Assembly: GCF_032854445.1 (NCBI RefSeq)
Contig: NC_088304.1
Coordinates: 15,821,704-15,885,703, forward strand
Direction of reading: 5' to 3'
Source of the DNA: Liolophura sinensis
Taxonomy: Eukaryota > Mollusca > Polyplacophora > Chitonida > Chitonidae
Length of the DNA stretch: 64,000 bases
Positions 13,001-50,900 of the stretch are shown one piece after another; the first letter of the stretch is position 1, and the number at the start of each line of letters is the position of its first letter. A model generated the notes under the pieces. The model ran no database searches, was not told where the DNA came from, and saw only the letters and a list, made by a program, of their open reading frames with translations. The position numbers were made by a program, and so were the translations under genes.

Positions 13001-16000
13001 CACATCTGAAAAAAGACCGATATGAAACTCTTCGTTTGTGTCACAATTCCACGTCAACACACCCACCAAGTGCGGGTAGCCAAACTAATGCTATTCACAT
13101 GTATTCAATGAGCCATTAATGAGTGTCCGCGTGTCTTCGAATAAATGCACATAAACAAGCGTTCCTGTAAATGTGAACCTTGGCTAAATGAGAAGGAATG
13201 CTGCGTACAGCTGGCGCTCGTTATACGCATGCCCCACGCATGTCTTTGTACGCTGCCTTATTCTTCTTATATACAGGGTAAATCCCCGTCATACGAGACC
13301 GTGAACAATTTGCCTTACCTAGAGATGGTCATTACGGAGACCTTGAGAATGATACCACCTGCTGGCAGGTATGAAATGATTTATTTATTTATTTCATAAG
13401 TGTTTTACGCCGTATGCAAGGGCCAGAAATGATTTATTTCTTTATCTGACTGGTGTTTTACGCCGCACTCAAGGGTAAGAAATGATTTATTTATTTATCT
13501 GATTGGTGTTTTATACCGCACTCAAGGGTAAGAAATGATTTATTTATATATTTGATTGGTGTTTTACGCCGTACTCAAGGGTAAGAAATGATTTATTTAT
13601 TTATTTGACTGGTGTTTTGCGCCGCAGGATAGGGTAAGAAATGATTTCTTTATTTCATTGATGATTAACGCCGTACTCAAGGATAAGAAATACATCGAAT
13701 TCTCAAAACTGTAAAAACAAATATAAAATTATGATGATTGGCGATCTGATATCCAGTAAAACACATCATTACAATATCAAAGTTTCGTTATGTTTCGCTG
13801 ATCATTAAATTGCGATATAATTCCATGGTAATACCTTTATAGTTAATGAGCAGATTCGTTGAGCATTTACTTTCATCATACCAGCAGCATAACGGTGTGA
13901 ACAGTTTGGTACATCTGTTTCTGTGTAGAATGGACAGAGTATGTAAACGTGACACCCAGATCAATGGCCAGTTCATTCCCGCTGGAATTACAGTGGGGAT
14001 CCCCGTCTACCTTATTCATCATGACCCAGACATCTGGCCCGACCCGGAGACTTTTGACCCGCAAAGGTAACGCTTGGTCGTTAAGACTTGTGTTTTGCAC
14101 GCTGGCATTGCCATTTGCATTCATTTCCTGTATGATATATACTTGATTATATACATAGTTTCATTTTACATTCCTGAGCGAAAGGATTCATGTCATGTTA
14201 ACTTGGATCATCCATGTTTTTCCAACACTGCTTAAAATCTTTTGAAAAACATTTCGTTATTATGTCATATCATTGTTCATAGAGAAATTCGCCAGTACAT
14301 GAAATGCGTGTTTGGGCGCGTTGATCTCTCGAAAATCGGAGCTAGTGGCTGTTCTAAATACTGGTTTATTGTTTGGGAGGCATTCTTGTATGTATTAATA
14401 ATTATTCACTCATATGGCGATGAGGGTTGACTGCGTGTATGTGTATATGTACTGTGTCTTTTTGTACTGAGTTCGTCTCACCAAGGTGCTGCCACCACTG
14501 AAGTATCAGGCCGAAGACACCAAACATGAAGCCTCATTTATTCACATTATACTGACACCAGGTCTACCAATCAATCGATGCCGTTGGGTAAATCTGAAGT
14601 CAACAGCCAGTCGATCGATTTATTTTTGGCCGGGGATATCAGAAGAATCAAAGTCGTCGTTGCACTAGAATAGTGTTTAAATTCACTAAAATATAAAATG
14701 AAGATCTGGGACTGGGCGAACAGTGGAAAGGCTGAGAGTCACGTAAATGATCAGAAAGCCTAGAGATTTGTCGTTATAGCTAATCATGCTTTGCTTGACA
14801 TGTATATCTTGACACATTAACTCTTCAACTCAGGTTCAGCCCAGAAAACAAGATGGCCCACCATCCTCTCCAGTGGATTCCCTTTGGGTACGGCCCCCGG
14901 AACTGTATCGGTATGAGACTGGCTAACTTTGTAATCAAAATGGCACTCGTCCGACTGTTACAAACTTACAAGTTTGTTCCAAACAGCAAGACGGTAAGTC
15001 AGAAGGCAATATGTTAAAGTGGATGGTTAATATCAGGCTTAATACATTGCATAGAATTATTAATTATGAGGAGGAATTTTCTAGGAAGAACTGCATTTCT
15101 TCTGTCAGTGCTGTTTGGCTAACTGAGTGTCCTTGCCCTAACCTACTACGTTCGGTTTAATTTTTGATTATCCTTTTTGTATTAACCTGTAAGATTAAAT
15201 GACTGTACAACCGCGTATGTTCGTAACATCGAAAGTGGGGGCTTGACCTTTTTTGTTTGTCATCTCTGACTGCGGACACAGCAAAACTGAAGTATTAAAA
15301 AATGGCGGCTATACGCTGTTTCTTCTAAAATTTGGGACACCTGATCTGCCCCTTTTAGCCGATATATATGTAATTCTAGTAGGAATATTGGGTTTCTTTT
15401 TTCTCACATGGTTATACCATCAAATGAACAACATACTCATGCCTTTATTTTACCAGACTGGTAAAGAATTGTAATATTCTACTTTGAACACTTCTAATAA
15501 ATGTCCCAAATTTTAGAAGAATGAGGATAGGTTTCAAAATGTACTAGTGAAAAAAGATTGTCTTTGACAGTGCATCTAATTGAGGCTTTATTATAGACAT
15601 AATACGCATGAAGCCATTAAAACGAAGCCAGTGTGACTGGACTGGGTGAGATAGGTTCATCTTTGAGATTTATCTGTTTTGAAGGTTCCTCTGGATTTAG
15701 GTACCACAGCATTTTTGGCGGACAAGAAGAATGGCGTCTGGGTAACGGTCGAAAAACGACAGTAACTGAACCAGCGCCCACGTGCATCTGGCTGTCCTTC
15801 GATTTCATGTGTGCATCATATATAAATACTGTTTGAACATTTTTTAAAATTTGTTCAGCTGTCCAGAAATATGAATGTTTAATGTAGCTAGGTTTTAGCT
15901 TTTGTACATACAAAGCTACGTTTGAAAACATGAAAAGATAGGTCTCCTTGTTCAAATACGAAGTACGTTACATGTAGTAGGCCAAATTATAACACACAAT

Positions 16001-17050: not shown

Positions 17051-17236
17051 ATATATTTATTTATTTATTTCATTGGTGTTTTACGCCGTACTCAAGAATA
17101 TTTCACTTATACGACGGCGGCAAGCATTATGGTGGGTGGAAACCGGGCACAGTCCGGGGGAAACCTACGACCATCCGCAGGCTGCTGGAAGACCTTCCCA
17201 CGTACGGCCGGGGAGGAAGCCAGCATGAGCTGTGGA
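17051..17236 (-). repeat. SINE family A, 5'-truncated
   Basis: Tail (TTATTTATTTATTTCATTGG), TTTTACGCCGTACTCAAGAA and the whole body to GAGGAAGCCAGCATGAGCTG; the tRNA-like head is missing. It is one of the least diverged copies here. Lies between the two convergent P450 genes. Confidence 0.9.
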
Positions 17237-17362
17237 CATATGTTGGAAAGGCACTTAAGAATGTAGTCATCGATTTTCTTTATTTCCTTCGATTTATTTC
17301 TTTCTGTTGATGTGAAGATGGCCCATATGTATCAGGTCGTGGCACAGACCAAATGCTAAGAC

Positions 17363-17938
17363 CAGTGTTGTCAGCTATACAGGCATTTACGTTGTTATCT
17401 TCATGCTAGGGCATTTATGGCGCCAGGGGGTACACAATGCTGTATTAGAAACATAGCCCAGTGTTGTCAGCTATACAGGCATTGACGTTGTTATCTTCAT
17501 TCTAGGGCAATTATGGCGCCAGGGGGTACACAATGCTGTATTAGAAACATAGCCCAGTGTTGTCAGCTATACAGGCATTGACGTTGTTATCTTCATGCTA
17601 GGGCATTTATGGCGCCAGGGGGCACACAATGCTGTATTAGAAACATAGACCAGTGTTGTCAGCTATACAGGCATTTACGTTGTTATCTTCATGCTAGGGC
17701 ATTTATGGCGCCAGGGGGTACACAATGCTGTATTAGAAACATAGCCCAGTGTTGTCAGCTATACAGGCATTGACGTTGTTATCTTCATTCTAGGGCAATT
17801 ATGGTGCCAGGGGGTACACAGTGCTGTATTAGAAACATAGCCCAGTGTTGTCAGCTATACAGGCATTTAAGTTGTTATCCTCATGCTAGGGCATTTATGG
17901 CGCCAGGGGGTACACAATGGTGTATTAGAAACATAGCC
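17363..17938 (+). repeat. 96-bp minisatellite, six units, 288-bp higher-order period
   Basis: CAGTGTTGTCAGCTATACAG recurs at 17363, 17459, 17555, 17651, 17747 and 17843, exactly 96 bases apart, and a degenerate version follows at 17939. Variant sites show order: units 1 and 4 are both preceded by AGAC and read CATTTACG; units 2 and 5 both read CATTGACG with ATTCTAGGGCAATT. The array thus looks like a duplicated three-unit block. Confidence 0.95.
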
Positions 17939-18507
17939 CGGTGCTACAATTCACATCCCTCATTGCCCGAACAGCACTGCCATGTGCAAACCATGTTACC
18001 AAATACTGTCATCGCAGAATTTGGTTAACAAATAAATTGCAATACGTCTATGAAATAATCTTACAGATACACATAAACACAACAATAATAATGTACACAC
18101 TATAATTTTATTTACAGTGTATATATACAATTAGGTACAAATTGGTAAGAGAGGTAATGGAGAAAACTACACCAAATAGATGTAGAGGTCGAATTAAGAT
18201 GTCACCGTATTTTACCTAAACGTTTATACTTGCGTACACATGACGTATGGGTGACAAAATACGCAGGAAACCGACAACGTAATAGTAAAAGAGAATAAAA
18301 ATGAAACAAAACCATAATATCGCTCAAAAGCTACACAGTTTTTTTTAACTCACATATTTTTTGTTACGAACGGGTACAAAGGTAAGAACACTGTAAAATC
18401 AGAAGCGTAGGCAGACATAAATCTCGTATCTACGTCTCTACATGTCTCTTATTTTTAACATATCGATGTATGCTCGTGTTGACACGTCTACGGCAGCATC
18501 GTCTTTC

Positions 18508-29537
<11,030 letters not shown>

Positions 29538-30553
29538 TTTCCTAACCGTGTTTGAGGAAAGGCTGTCCTGTCAAAGTCCTCTGCGGTCTATGCGCCCCAC
29601 GGCTTATGACGCGCAGTGTATTTTGTGTGCAGCGGACTTGTGCGTTTGACCCTCCCTGAGGCTAATCTGGTGGGTTGTTCATGCGTATCGAGATCTAGGG
29701 TTTATTTGGCTGGACGTTGTGCCCTGTATGCTCTGCACTCGCTAAATACGATCCAGGCCTGAGGATTGCGAAACGTGTTCGCCGGTGGAAAATAGGTCGG
29801 CGTGAACAGTGTGTAGATAAGAAAGGCTATATCAGATGTACACGTAATACCACTTTTACGCTGACGCGCTTGTCTCTCGACCCAGATACGGTCGCTTAAA
29901 ATCAGGGGGCTGGCTCAAGTTTAAATGTTATCTTCATGCATCGACGCTGTAGCGTTTGCATTGCCTTTTGATTGTTTATATCTTTAATATTTCATTCTAC
30001 ATTTCAGGAATTTTCGGAATACTTCCTAACGGACCTGGTACGATAAGGAGGAGAATCAGATCCAGAGAGGTACGATAAGAAAGTGCAAAAATCAAAACCC
30101 AGGACAATTTTGTAAATTTCTGAATCAGCAGAATAATACTTGGTCGACGTATCCATAAAGTTATATGGTCGTTAAAGAGATGGTTGCTTAGTAACAACCC
30201 GCCAAAAATGCACTCTCAATCGAAAACCCAAACTTTTCGTTCAAACGAGGCAGTGTGTTTTTAACTTGCAGTATGAAGATCAACTTTAACCAGAATGATA
30301 GTTTTACCAAAACATTCATGTGTGTTTTTATACGTTCTATCAAAGTTTCGTTTTGATTAACCTTCGTCGTCACGATATATAGACAGCCTTGCATTAATTG
30401 GGTGTAACCATGAATAAAAATGGATAATTGTTATGGTATAGTATTACGTAACGTCTAGCAACTATAGCGAAATCATGCCTGAAATCTGGTTGAGAGCACA
30501 ATTACTCGTCTATCATTAACATGTTACGCTTAGTGGAAGTATAGGCTGAAACT
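29538..30553. other. P450-B 5' flank, no gene seen
   Basis: The P450-B start codon is at 29537, supported by the matching N-terminus of P450-A. On the minus strand CACGGTTAG just before the ATG could be a 3' splice site, so a non-coding first exon is possible. No coding sequence, RNA gene or named repeat was recognised. Confidence 0.4.
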
Positions 30554-30825
30554 GGGGCCTCCGTAGCTCAGTTGATTAGTGCGCTAGCGCAGCGTAATGA
30601 CCCAGAAGCCTCTCACCAATGTGGTCGCTGTGAGTTCAAGTCCAGCTCATGCTGGCTTCCTCTCCGGCTGTAATTGAGAAGGTCTGTCAGCAAACTGCGG
30701 ATGGTCGTGGGTTTCCCCCGGGCTGTGCCCGGTTTCCACCCACCATAATGCTGGCCGCCGTTGTATAAGTGAAATATTCTTGAGTACGGCGTAAAACACC
30801 AATGAAATAAATAAATAAATAAAAT
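30554..30825 (+). repeat. SINE family A, full-length reference copy
   Basis: Complete: GGGGCCTCCGTAGCTCAGTT head with A-box-like stretch, GTGAGTTCAAGTCCAGCTCA B-box-like stretch, body TGCGGATGGTCGTGGGTTTC, CCGCCGTTGTATAAGTGAAA, GAGTACGGCGTAAAACACCA and an AATAAATAAATAAATAAA tail. Other copies in this window were compared with this one. The head looks like a degenerate tRNA but does not fold as a functional one by eye. Confidence 0.93.
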
Positions 30826-31383
30826 AGTGATATTTCAGTGTGACTGGTCAGGAATAGGCTACCATATTTCGACTTAACCATGCCAGGTCCTTTGGCTTGC
30901 AAATTCCTGGCCCGTAGTTGGCAATATCCACGATCTGATGTGAGAAAGGTGTGTTCAAGTGTATTTATGTACACTTTATTAACTTTATGAATCAGTTTAC
31001 AATTTCCAACCAAGTGGTTGGCATATTTCTCCACCAAGTGGCGCGAACTTCTACAGATGACGTCACATGTGTACTGGGTCGTGGAGACTAGCCATAGGGA
31101 AAGGATATTATCCTATAATGCAGTAGACTGATGGTTAGCAACGAATAGTTTCCTATTTCATCGCCTACATAGGTTACATGACAACTTCAAAACCACCAGA
31201 GTCAGCCCTTGCGTCATTTCACACATGATCTGTCACTGCGTGCGGGTTGGCAATGGATCTGCATGACGATATCCCAGGGGTCCATTGCAAATATTGATTT
31301 TTTTTGTCTACATTTGTCAAGTGACGTTACATGTAGATGTCTGATAAGAAAACAAGCTGTGTTTCACACTGAGGATTTGTATA

Positions 31384-32459: not shown

Positions 32460-34019
32460 TCCATTTGCACTTATAATATATCATGAGTGATAATTATCAT
32501 TCGTTTTCCAGGACTCCGTTACCACGGCAGCAACAACGGAGCATGCGATGTATCACCTTGCCCTCAATCCTCGACACATTGTCAGGCTAATAGAGGAAAT
32601 AGACGAACATTTTCCCGCAGGTGAGCTGGGCTTTGGCTGATGACGTCATAAGCTTCTTTACTTCTGGATGTATTACGTTACGTTGAAACTGCAACCAACT
32701 ATTCGCTCAAGCCTAAAACAAGACTAAAACGCCCGTTGATACTTTCTGAAATGTTTTGACAAGATATGAACATTTGCAATAATTAAGGCCGCGGAATTAA
32801 GCGTAATGCAGAAGTACGTATTCTCAAGAGAGAAAGAAGGAGCCGTTTTAAGAGCAGTCACATCTGATTCATATGTCACTGTGCATAGGCACCTTAGTCG
32901 ATTATTTCGAATTGAAAATGTACCAGGCCAACTTCGAACCAGACCAAAGACATTTTATTTATTTCATTGATGATGAGTGCATTATTAAAGTATTTGTCAC
33001 GGAGAAAGCCGGAGTGGCCGGTGTAGATAAATCACCTTTCCCTTTCACACAGCCTTAAGCTTGTCCATATACGCAAAGTTTGGTGTTTCTATCCTTACAT
33101 GTCAGACCTATTTTCCGGGGAAAGGTCCCGGACTGTGAGAGTACAGAAAACCCTCCTTTTCTAAAAACGGTAGTCATGGGGACTTTGAGAATACATCCAC
33201 CGCCAGAAAGGTAAGAACAGGTGTCTTTCGTTATGCCACAAATGACACCTTGTGAAACCATAGCACTGTTTGTTACAAGGCTGTATTATTTTATTCTTTT
33301 TATTCTTCTTTATTTGAAGTTCTCTAAATAACAAAACAAAACAAAAAACACTCTTTGCACTTTGAAAGGTAGATGTAGAGACTGTTCTCAAAGCCTCTGT
33401 TTTTTTCACAAAACCTCCTAACGTAATTACCGTGATTGTTGAAAGGCCTTTACTCAAAAATATTATATACAGGTTTTAATGATATTTAATTTTGTTAAAG
33501 AATTATTAACGTTGCGAATTAAACCAATGAATTCGGTCTTTACTGTAGGGTAGAATCTGCATGTTCTTCGAACATCGAAGTCAGTTACATTACGATTCGA
33601 ACAGGAATGAACATATCCGTGGCCATTTACCCCATAGCTGATGATGCGCAATGCTAGCCTGATCCGGAAGTGTTGCCCAGACAGGTGAGTTATCAACCTC
33701 AATTTCCCTTGCTCTCTCACATCTCCGTTCCCTCTTCATTGGCACCAAGACAAGCTATTTGTTGGCACATCGGAACATCCTTTCACACGACATATGGTGA
33801 TATTTGTACCAAATCATGCCTCCATCAGCAAACATAAAGCAAACATTTATTAATGCCTAAGACACATGAGATGAGGGTTCACTCGCGGCCTTTGACAGAA
33901 CCGTTTGCTTATGTATCGTCAGTGACTTGCCAAAGATCACCGGTTTATGGAGAGAAGTTCGGTATCCTCCGCCCATACATGTAAAACTGACCACTATCGT
34001 TCATACGAAATAAATCTTA

Positions 34020-34443
34020 TAGGAAAAGACCTCTAAAAATCGAAGTAGACCTCACTAAATGGATCACTTAAAACTATGTACAAATATAAGTTTCATTTAC
34101 TTGTGAAAAGAGTTAAAGGCGCTCAAACATTTGAATTCTAAGGTGGGCTTATTGACCATATTATCAGAGGTTAGGGACAGGAAGTTTTTCCAACTCTAAT
34201 TGTGACACTGGATGTTGGAATCACTCTACGTATGAGTAAAGCATTACTGAAATAATGTTTCCAGAAATTTCTTCCTTCTGGTGAACATAAGAAAAAAATG
34301 TGATGTGACGTCAGAGTTCCTAGATACCGTCAGTGTGACTTGTAAAGCCCACCACAGTGTTCAAATATTTAAATGCCCTTCAACACTCTTAAAAGAATAT
34401 AAAAGTAAATGAAAGTGTTTTTATGCATAGTTTTCAGTTGTCT
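34020..34443 (+). repeat. Dispersed repeat D, copy 1
   Basis: AAAGACCTCTAAAAATCGAA, AGAGTTAAAGGCGCTCAAAC, GTGACGTCAGAGTTCCTAGA and AAATGCCCTTCAACACT recur in the same order at 52013-52401. It is a non-coding interspersed element of about 400 bases; class unknown. Lies between pseudogene exons 12 and 13. Confidence 0.85.
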
Positions 34444-35692
34444 GTATGTTAAACCTTGCCCCATATTTTAGCTTGCTTTTAATTTAAATATCGTGTTGAG
34501 AAACAGTCAAAAAATAAATGAATCTATTGAAGCACTGGAACGTCGCTCGTAGTTATGTGTGTAGAAATAAAATAATGTGAGCTACTGAATTTAACTTGAC
34601 CCCAGATATAGGTCAACTGGACATAGTAAGTTACAACGTTCATGTAACCAGCATATAAAGCATACCATGAACAGAGAATACAACTGAAAGTTTTCAAAAG
34701 CGAGATGCAAGCAGCGACATGCCGAGAAACGCTCGTGCCTACCTACACTCAGGTCCCTCGCAGAGTGGATGGAGTGCACTAGACCAAGTACATGTGTAAC
34801 CTACCCAAAACTAAAAAAAATGTTCGTATTTAATGTGTGGTTTTGAGATAACGCGGTTTAAAACAAGGTAAAATGCACCCTCTGAATCCCAAGCGCAGCC
34901 ATTTTATCAGATTTAACTAATCCAGCGCGAGTTATTGCACTAACCCGAGAACGCACCTGTTTCTGCGGTGATGTCACGCGACCGCTGTGTTACCTTTTTG
35001 TTATATAGCCTGGTGAGCGTAGAGTACTAAAAAAGACCATATAGTGTTTCCGGTTCAAAATGGCATGTCTCGCCAGGTCTAGCTAGATTGCCAGATAAAT
35101 GTTGACTTAGCAGTGTATCAAGCACGTTAGAAAGAATTCCTGTTTCACCTGTTAAGGCTATGTTATTTGTTGTCCTGTCGGTTCATGGTAGTTTTTACTG
35201 GTGGGAGTGGGAATTTCGTTTCCTGATGTAAACACACATTCTAGGAATCTAACTTGAAAACGTTAGTTCAAAATCCAGAGTGGTCTCAGCCAAGTTTCAG
35301 CGCTCGACTTGTGCTCAGAAAATGCGATTCACGCTAGATAACAATACTGTTCTGAAGGTAACACTTCGGAAAGGAAGAAGTGATTGCCTAATGTCATGAA
35401 AATCACTCACTGTCCCTACACACCATATATAGTACACATCCCCATATAGCTGTTATATAAACTTCACCCACGGCAGGTTTATCCCCGAAAAGCGGGGTTT
35501 ACATCACCCATTCCAGTGGATCCCATTTTGCCATGGTTTAAGATTCTGCATTGCTTCTAGACTTCCGATGTTCGAGATTAAAATGGTACTGGAGCTATTG
35601 TTTCACAAGTACAAATTTGTCCCATGCAGGAAGACAGTGAGTTGTAGTAACATACCCAAGGACGAGTCAGAAAAGAGGCTGAGATCCTAACT

Positions 35693-38568: not shown

Positions 38569-38783
38569 ATTTATTTATTTGATTTGCACTTTACGCCGTG
38601 CTCAAGAATGTTTTACTCATTGGACGGCGGCCAGCATTATGGTAGGAGGAAAACGGGGCAGAGCCGGTGGAAACCCACGACCATCCGCAGGCTGTTGCAA
38701 GATTTCCATGTAGAGGAAGCCAGCGCGAGCTGGACTTGAACTCACAGCGACCACACTGGTGTGAGGCTCCTCGGTCTTTACTC
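38569..38783 (-). repeat. SINE family A in the 3' flank of the hillarin-like gene
   Basis: Reverse-oriented family A: TTTATTTATTTGATTTGCAC tail, GACGGCGGCCAGCATTATGG, CCACGACCATCCGCAGGCTG, GGACTTGAACTCACAGCGAC; the first part of the head is lost. It has the same orientation as the gene, so its tail reads AATAAATAAA on the gene strand, about 375 bases after the stop codon. I saw no earlier AATAAA. Confidence 0.88.
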
Positions 38784-47900: not shown

Positions 47901-50900
47901 TACAGCATTTCATACAGAAGGAAGGCAGATTGTTTTCACGGTTTCATGCAAAGTTTCCTATTTCCTATCACCATGGTGACTGGGGGCGTGTACTTTGTTA
48001 CTATTTAAGCATTTACAGTTAGAATAAAACTCAAACTGAGGTAAATGGACGTGATACTATATTTTCACCTTCTATTGCTGAAAATCTGTTATCATATTAT
48101 ATTACAGTGTTTTTAAAGGGAAACTAATAAAAACATCTAATGGGCTTGACTTTTTTCACTTTATCATATTATTCTTCATTTAAATATGCAGTGTTCCCTC
48201 ATTATCATTTGTTTTCAGCACAAGGAGCCAGAATGCTAGACGCAGTTAAAACTTCAAATATCATCTATAGTCATCATCTGTAACGGTATTGTAATCCGTT
48301 TAACTACTAGCACTTATCTATTGAAATTTTTTCTACTTGGAATAAATTATTTGCCTCAGAATTTTCTGGCAAAGGCTATACGGGTAGGGCATCTACGCAC
48401 AACGTAAAAAGAGACATTTGACACCAACGACAGAATAGGACTACTGTACACGTGGCTGATTAAGATATGCGGTCAATTCAGACAGACACACAGCTAGGAG
48501 ATAACAGCGAGGTCAGTGTTTAAAATAGAAACATACTGTTCCTATTTTTTATACGTCAGACGTCCCCCTCGCGTAGAAGTACCTAGTTCGTAGGCGTAAC
48601 ATGCATAAAGGCCTGAGGACATGAAGCTTCTGAAAGCTAGCTGAATCAAATGTACACATCCTTCGGCTAATTTATATTCATGGTGTATTTTGACACCTTA
48701 CTTTCAACATTTGTAGAACGAGCCTTTCGAGGCAATGCTGAAAGATGATCTCCATCTGTACCTATTGGGTTCGTTAAGACAGACGATGAAATAGCTGTGT
48801 ATATATCTATGATATATCCTTAGCCCACAGCCTTGGCAATCTTGGTATAAGTTACAAAAAAAACCCTCTGTGGTAAGTCACTAAACCCTTACTGAAACTG
48901 GTAACAAAAGGAGCAAGTGAATAATAGTTAGGATTCCCAGTTTGTTCACTTTTTTAGAGAAGTACCTTAGAAACCTGATCTGCGGGTGGTCGTGGGTTTC
49001 CCCCGGGCTCTGCCCGGTTTCCCCCACCATATTGCTGACCGCAGTCGTATAAGTGAAATATTCTTGAATAGGGCGTATAACACCAATCAAATAAATAAAT
49101 ATATAAATAAATAAATAGAAAAGTATATAACAGTAATCCCAGCACGAACAACAAGCTTCCATCTTCAGCTCGAAAGCAAAATAATTGAATAGACTCTACT
49201 CACGGATATTCGCAAAACACATGCAAGCGTCGTCTTAATGAAACACGCACTCTTTCAGTGAAATGCACATTTTAAAACGTCCACAATACTTGTAATTTTG
49301 ACATTCATAGATATTACCTATAGAAATAACCAGGGTGGATTACCCCAGTAAATGAGAGTAATCACCAACCGTCTTATGTTATAAATATGTGATTGTTAGC
49401 GAGTTATGCTGTAGCGGTGAGTACATGGTCCTGCAACAAAAGTGGCGAACATCTGTAAAACTCTTTGTCTAAAACAGTATGATGTTTGCTAAACTGATCT
49501 CTTTAATATAACTTCTGTGCACTTGTAAATATTAAAATCCTCGTGTGATTTGAAATAAGCCATCTGTTTGTTTGTTTGTTTGCTCCACTGATGTTTCCTG
49601 TTTTATAAAAAGACATAGCGCTTCTAGGACAACTGTCTGTTATGTTAACTGGAAAAAGTCGCGCAAAGCACGAAGAAAACGAACAGCGTTTTGTAATGTT
49701 CGCGACGCACAACAACTGGCATAATATTTTTGTAGTAATTCTGATATATCGGTATTTATTGGGCTATCTTACATATCATTTACTCGTATGTATCGTCATC
49801 TGAAAATGCTGAATAAAGCATGGACTACCTGTCAAATCTTGTTTTCTTTTGTGCGAGAGCAACAGTCTGTAAACCATGCTGGGACAACGGAGTTGCCATT
49901 ACATCGCGTCGCATTCACTAACATGTTTCTACTTCTGCACACTTATAAGGGAGCCAAGATGTGATAATGCTGGCTGTCATTTGTGTTTCACGTGAAAGAA
50001 GAACTTGTTTGCCAGAGGCGTGAAAACGATGTTTCAATCTAATAAGTATATATAGTGAAACAGACTAAGCCGAATGCAAATCAACTGGTGCGTAAATCTG
50101 GTTCAACGTTACCGTAATATCTTTTAGACAGGTTGACCCAACTTTAAGACCAGCACCACTATAGTTCTCTGAAGCAATTAAGTTGAAAAATTTCTCAGTA
50201 CACCCTAGGCATGTAACAAAGGTGTCACGGCTGTTTACAAAATACAAATAATCATGTGTACAAGGTGCATTGCATTTCTCCTAATTTGAAACAATCGGTG
50301 AGTTACTTTACATGCAGACGTTGCACGCGACGCGTCGTGTCAAACCACACGAGAGTCATCATCTCTGAGATGATTGCAAGTAATGCAGTGTTGACCTGAC
50401 CTGAATACCAGAGGCCCTGCGTCCTGCCGCCTAACCATATATGACGAGAGAGTTCTCAAGGGGAGGTGACTCACGCAAAGGCCAACCGAGAACACGCATT
50501 ACCTAAGTAGATAAAATGTAGGTACATTTCTAACCTATAAAAAAAACGATAGACAGATAGGTTATCTTCTAACGCTGTGGTGATTGAATTAAACGAGAAA
50601 TGACCTCATTGTTTAGTAATGGATAATTTTAGACATCAAGTCATGAGATATCCAACGACGTAGAGAATGCAGAGATACGGAAATGAGTAATGACGACAGA
50701 TTACATTTTCCAATAATGGCGTCAGGTATACCGGCACTAACTTAAATAGGACAAAATTAGATGAACTAATCGCAAATATCTGCGTAATGTAGTTCACAGC
50801 AGCGCACAACGGCGGTAGTGTTGATGTGTATTAGGCAATATTGCCGGGACATCTTTGCTTGAGAAAGTTTCGCAGCGAGATTTAACGTGCTTCGCATATA

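Follow-up and report, generated by a model that had tools for sequence, protein, structure and literature searches.

There are precedents for multi-donor minisatellites, for minisatellites born from transposable elements (TEs) and for splice sites that come from target-site duplications. A minisatellite with multiple donors is reported in IFI6 (also G1P3 or 6-16; Turri, Cuin and Porter, 1995, Nucleic Acids Res 23:1854). For TE-derived repeats, the Haber-Louis model holds that repeat units arise from the stretch enclosed by a pair of short direct repeats, and Jurka and Gentles are described as having TE-derived minisatellites of Alu begin at short flanking direct repeats (excerpts of PMC6947457 and PMC3389668); 300 human TE-derived tandem repeats are flanked by direct repeats of 5–20 bp (PMC3389668, excerpt). 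Target-site duplications may also seed tandem TE arrays through slippage or recombination, and the junctions of tandem P elements have the size of target-site duplications (PMC9659126, excerpt). In Patella, the satellite PcH-sat comes from a Nin-SINE, with a unit of 179 bp and about 600,000 copies in one species (PMC11121367, excerpt). Introners recruit a splice site from the target-site duplication and in this way create new introns (PMC9860276, excerpt).

The locus described here appears to be a TE-born minisatellite at the splice donor of a P450 gene. As in IFI6, the array in this gene (P450-A) contains several donor-grade sites by score, namely four AGG/GTAAGA copies. In contrast to IFI6, the P450-A unit contains a SINE tail, an origin from a target-site duplication is indicated, and all decoy products would be truncated. 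The route would be that of the Haber-Louis model, except that the direct repeats would be a target-site duplication which coincides with a splice donor. The cases in the excerpt of PMC9659126 involve cut-and-paste transposition and whole elements, whereas the P450-A unit combines a 42-bp SINE remnant with a splice donor. Like PcH-sat, the array repeats a truncated SINE segment in tandem, but it consists of six units at one gene. A target-site duplication would provide the splice site, as it does in the excerpted account of introners, but the SINE would have enlarged an existing intron and made no new one. What is unusual is the proposed birth of the repeat from a duplication over an existing donor, and no paper joining target-site duplication, minisatellite and splice donor was found in the limited collection searched.

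P450-A lies on the plus strand of the window, by which we mean the whole 64-kb stretch of DNA analysed. Our model covers 11 recognised exons inside the outermost ones. From 6700 to the exon ending ...AACAGCAAGACG, these exons form a single open frame of 444 codons, and the ten introns that separate them all have GT-AG borders. Pfam identifies the product as PF00067 with E 9e-99; among solved sequences, the 14 with a match at E 1e-60 or better all belong to CYP3A. The exon at the array (13277–13368, plus strand) is the ninth of the 11, named exon 11 in the preliminary description; it ends in ...PPAG/R and shares 62% identity over 34 aa with the corresponding exon of a second gene, P450-B (ORF 21331–21582, minus strand). 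Its last base is 13368. The real 5′ splice site, CAG/GTATGA, occupies 13369–13374 with the donor GT at 13369–13370, and across this junction the 11-exon model keeps one open frame into the next exon (13929–14066; acceptor AG at 13927–13928). The intron is 560 nt long and would be 246 nt if the six units were removed; the intron upstream of the exon is 801 nt.

Tandem Repeats Finder (TRF) places the array at 13368–13691 with a period of 53, 6.2 copies, 82% matches and a score of 410. Direct reading and alignment resolve it into six units at 13368–13681, of 53, 53, 53, 53, 53 and 49 bp, which start at 13368, 13421, 13474, 13527, 13580 and 13633 and are followed by an 11-base remnant. The first base of the array is the last base of the exon, which bears out the preliminary description of a 53-bp array starting at the P450-A donor. 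Each unit joins an 11-mer, mostly GGTAAGAAATG and close to the real donor sequence GGTATGAAATG, to about 42 bp of inverted SINE tail; the copied donor neighbourhood is 11 bases long and includes the last G of the exon. Unit 1 (13368–13420) carries GGTATGAAATG with the real donor and a piece of SINE tail, and unit 2 (13421–13473) carries GGCCAGAAATG, in which GGCCAGA is without a GT. The 11-mer is GGTAAGAAATG in units 3 (13474–13526), 4 (13527–13579), 5 (13580–13632) and 6 (13633–13681, its tail four bases short), giving AGG/GTAAGA decoy donors at 13475, 13528, 13581 and 13634. A seventh, right-hand copy of the putative target site at 13682–13692, GATAAGAAATA (GATAAGA), has neither a GT nor a tail. 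All of these features are read on the plus strand. The statement that each later unit repeats the donor neighbourhood needs the correction that unit 2 and the remnant are without GT, and the count of four units with GTAAGA stands. Within the window the exact 11-mer occurs in units 3–6 only; with changes, it is found at both ends of the array and at all 5 internal junctions. Similarity between neighbours is 0.89 (units 2 and 3), 0.91 (3 and 4) and 0.85 (4 and 5) for the inner units and lower for the end pairs (0.77 for units 1 and 2, 0.76 for units 5 and 6). From 13686 to the acceptor there is no SINE match at the cut-offs used. In the paralogues P450-B (21331, minus strand) and P450-C (33211), the same donor is followed by no TRF array and no match to the unit.

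These are minisatellite-length tandem units on TE sequence, in that about 42 bp of each unit match the SINE tail of other copies. With a full SINE copy (30823–30554) as the query, 16 places outside the array, the query's own among them, match in whole or in part. The SINE tail noticed earlier in the units was confirmed: unit 4 matches the copy at 17055 with 95% identity over 42 bp, and its SINE part is also the nearest to a composite tail written from other SINE copies, from which it differs at 1 of 42 positions. Array units run from the ATTT tail to about CTCAAG with no body beyond it, which is an intact 3′ tail with the 5′ part truncated, as expected of insertion by target-primed reverse transcription, and the 7 SINE copies listed in the flank test continue from CTCAAG or TTCAAG into the SINE body (A[A/C]TATTTC), none of them into GGTAAG. 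We scored the 10 of the 16 places that have a ATTTATTT tail, leaving out the six without one. Their 11 bases before the tail match the array 11-mer at 1 to 5 positions (best 5/11). The possibility that the 11-mer is itself SINE sequence was rejected within the window, being borne out by 0 of the 10 tailed copies; since it is absent from these copies, the 11-mer is most likely derived from the target. The features of the Nin-SINE/MetaSINE family are a central domain and a tRNA head. No tRNA head was detected by ARAGORN in the window, or by Rfam in the window and in the copy at 30530–30850, and four SINE strings gave no match in the paper text searched.

Other SINE pieces and arrays were seen nearby. 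The matching intron of P450-B has a SINE-like piece at 20949–21011 (matching the 17033 copy at 75% across 63 bp), whose AAATAAATAAAT tail finishes near the acceptor. Another P450-B intron contains a 26-bp tandem array of 6.1 copies (25217–25374) that adjoins a piece of SINE without a tail at 25372, making it the second array to touch a SINE. A 96-bp array at 17362–17943 (6.1 copies, 95% matches) begins about 130 bp behind a truncated SINE (17054–17232).

We consider it likely that an inverted, 5′-truncated SINE with a target-site duplication over the donor gave rise to the array by minisatellite growth, with the upstream donor still being used for the most part. A target-site duplication, which the preliminary description did not propose, is the likeliest origin. 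An inverted SINE reduced to its last 42 or so bases would have inserted at the exon–intron junction of P450-A, and a duplication of about 10–11 bp (GGTAAGAAAT[G/A]) would have spanned the donor, leaving one copy by the exon and a second behind the SINE piece. This would explain why the donor is copied along with the SINE tail. The two short direct repeats would then have permitted slippage or unequal exchange in steps of 53 bp, by which the array may have reached its present six SINE pieces with seven copies of the target site. Six pieces and seven copies, the last of them tail-less and with no SINE beyond it, is the prediction of an expansion from a target–SINE–target arrangement. Because every unit junction holds the target 11-mer, multiplication would have occurred at the DNA level, not through reverse transcription. 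The upstream copy would be the working donor today, and four internal copies would have retained a donor that scores similarly or better; the upstream site would take nearly all transcripts, and any use of a decoy would only waste the transcript.

Direct repeats at other copies of the SINE were compared with those at the array. Next to the tail of the copy at 38569, TCAGAGAGAT occurs twice (10/10); the copy at 49107 has TACTT[T/C]TCTA (9/10), starting 15 nt past the aligned SINE end; and repeats by the tail match at 11/14 (17054) and 7/8 (44943). Less clear repeats accompany the copies at 28775 and 8241, in the latter case ending 8 nt short of the tail, and no convincing target-site duplication was found in 4 of the 10 other copies (1314, 5059, 30823 and 56389). 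When flank pairs were permuted 5000 times, 1 permutation attained the summed match of the true pairs of these 10 copies, in a test that was not blind, the tail borders having been fixed after the copies had been viewed; a first test, on 9 copies with poorly placed tail borders, gave almost no excess (5.8 vs 5.4). At the array itself, the first copy and the remnant are identical at 8/11 positions, with P about 0.001 under equal base odds at a register picked after looking at the sequence. When position was left free, the outer flank pair scored 6, which is reached by 19 of 90 mismatched pairs and is not striking; in an earlier free-position version, 1837 of 5000 shuffles did at least as well as this pair. 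The unit consensus agrees with the real donor at 10/11 positions and with the remnant at 9/11. It is the internal copies, rather than the apparently decayed outer pair, that carry the case for a target-site duplication.

The internal copies also suggest what the donor may once have been. The +4 position is A in units 3–6 and the remnant, and likewise in the donors that follow this exon in P450-C (AAG/GTAAGAAC, 33211) and P450-B (TCG/GTAAGT, 21331, minus strand); for this reason the older donor was probably GTAAGA and the T of the present GTATGA a later change, a reading based on few sequences. The donor that was present when the SINE inserted may survive in the inner copies.

Two other accounts of the array's origin can be set against the same facts. 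In one, there was no target-site duplication: a longer SINE lay by the donor, donor and tail were tandemly duplicated through chance breakpoints, and the SINE body was later deleted. The outer copies, identical at only 8/11 positions, leave room for it, and in principle tandem duplications commonly form with little homology. It requires one extra event, however, and it predicts neither the tail-less seventh donor copy at 13682 nor the lack of a SINE body behind the array, and we think it improbable. The other supposes that a ready-made 53-bp repeat, widespread in the genome, moved in, and that GGTAAGAAATG resembles a donor by accident. TE-derived satellites are indeed known in molluscs (PcH-sat; PMC11121367, excerpt), but the edge of the array falls exactly on the donor, there is no other copy of the unit within the 64-kb window, and the two outside matches at 10/11 (37069, plus strand; 50525, minus strand) lie over 1 kb away from the nearest SINE match, which together make this account very improbable. 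Insertion of a truncated SINE with duplication of its target remains our preferred reading.

Decoys and the real donor were scored against 22 other donors from homologous exons (10 from P450-A, 11 from P450-B and 1 from P450-C). A local matrix built from these 22 sites only gives the decoys 11.73 bits and the real donor 5.28, within a span of 4.9 to 12.4 for the 22; a general matrix gives 8.72 and 8.38; and the U1 duplex is −8.9 kcal/mol for the decoys and −7.2 for the real donor, the 22 others ranging from −11.9 to −4.8. By three measures, then, the four decoys are at least equal to the real donor, and the size of the gap depends on the measure. They had been called closer to consensus, which is right for the six intronic bases but not for the exonic side, where they have AGG against CAG in the real donor.

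A further proposal, that most decoys would shift the frame because 53 is not a multiple of three, and that output could be tuned in this way, had to be discarded. The exon frame read into the intron meets a TAA within unit 1 (13397–13399), upstream of all four decoys, and any transcript using a later donor reaches it. Decoy use would extend the exon by 106, 159, 212 or 265 nt, and the extension of 159 nt, which is a multiple of three, still stops at the TAA. Because the stop precedes every decoy, all decoy products end there and the argument from extension length becomes irrelevant: the array might divert output, but not by way of a frame shift. A decoy product would be expected to end ahead of the haem-binding region. 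The stop-to-junction limit for nonsense-mediated decay (NMD) is usually 50–55 nt, a value that may not be this organism's; the decoy distances (75, 128, 181 and 234 nt) all exceed it, and decay of decoy transcripts would be consistent with this.

Which donor is used bears on whether the array does anything. Mostly upstream use is most likely, and we take 13369 to be dominant because of the open frame only. According to the excerpt of PMC9225289, exon definition favours the upstream donor and intron definition the downstream one, nearer the 3′ site, with a switch at introns of 200–250 nt. If that rule holds in this organism, the array may be what lengthened the intron from 246 to 560 nt and brought it into the range in which the upstream donor is favoured.

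Against dominant upstream use stands a corrected form of the tuning idea in the preliminary description: the array might be a working variable-number tandem repeat (VNTR), in which decoys take a real share of splicing, products ending at the TAA are destroyed and the number of units sets the amount of P450. The donor scores speak for this, as do the distances from stop to junction; the +4 T of the real donor is found in 0 of the 22 other P450 donors in the window, and under intron definition the donor nearer the 3′ site would win (PMC9225289, excerpt). By U1 pairing, however, the real donor is ordinary among the 22 others, the flanking introns of 801 and 560 nt exceed the 200–250 nt above which exon definition favours the upstream donor in the same excerpt, and conservation of the donor part of the units does not significantly exceed that of the SINE part (3/66 vs 26/248 changes, Fisher P 0.16, with a SINE reference that is a composite of our own writing). 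Selection on the donor copies was rejected on that comparison, and we regard such a working repeat as unlikely. A more elaborate version seems slightly less probable still: U1 bound at the four stronger copies would divert a regulated share of transcripts to the shared stop, the true donor having been weakened from GTAAGA to GTATGA, and unit number would set output between individuals.

Minisatellite growth from a target-site duplication, with the upstream donor in use, suggests a simple way for a mobile element to insert at a splice donor while the gene survives: one copy of the duplicated target stays next to the exon as a donor, and the same duplication then seeds a donor-carrying repeat. 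If the decoys are used, P450-A would offer a naturally occurring set of donors in competition.

Two further features of the P450 genes in the window were seen. P450-C, the third copy (32494–35687, plus strand), looks decayed: it has GTLR in place of the ETLR of P450-A at the helix-K motif and FCHGLRFCIA in place of FGYGPRNCIG in the haem region. An intron of P450-B contains a 109-bp AC repeat (25953–26061; GT on the coding strand), lying some 45 nt beyond the donor at 26106.
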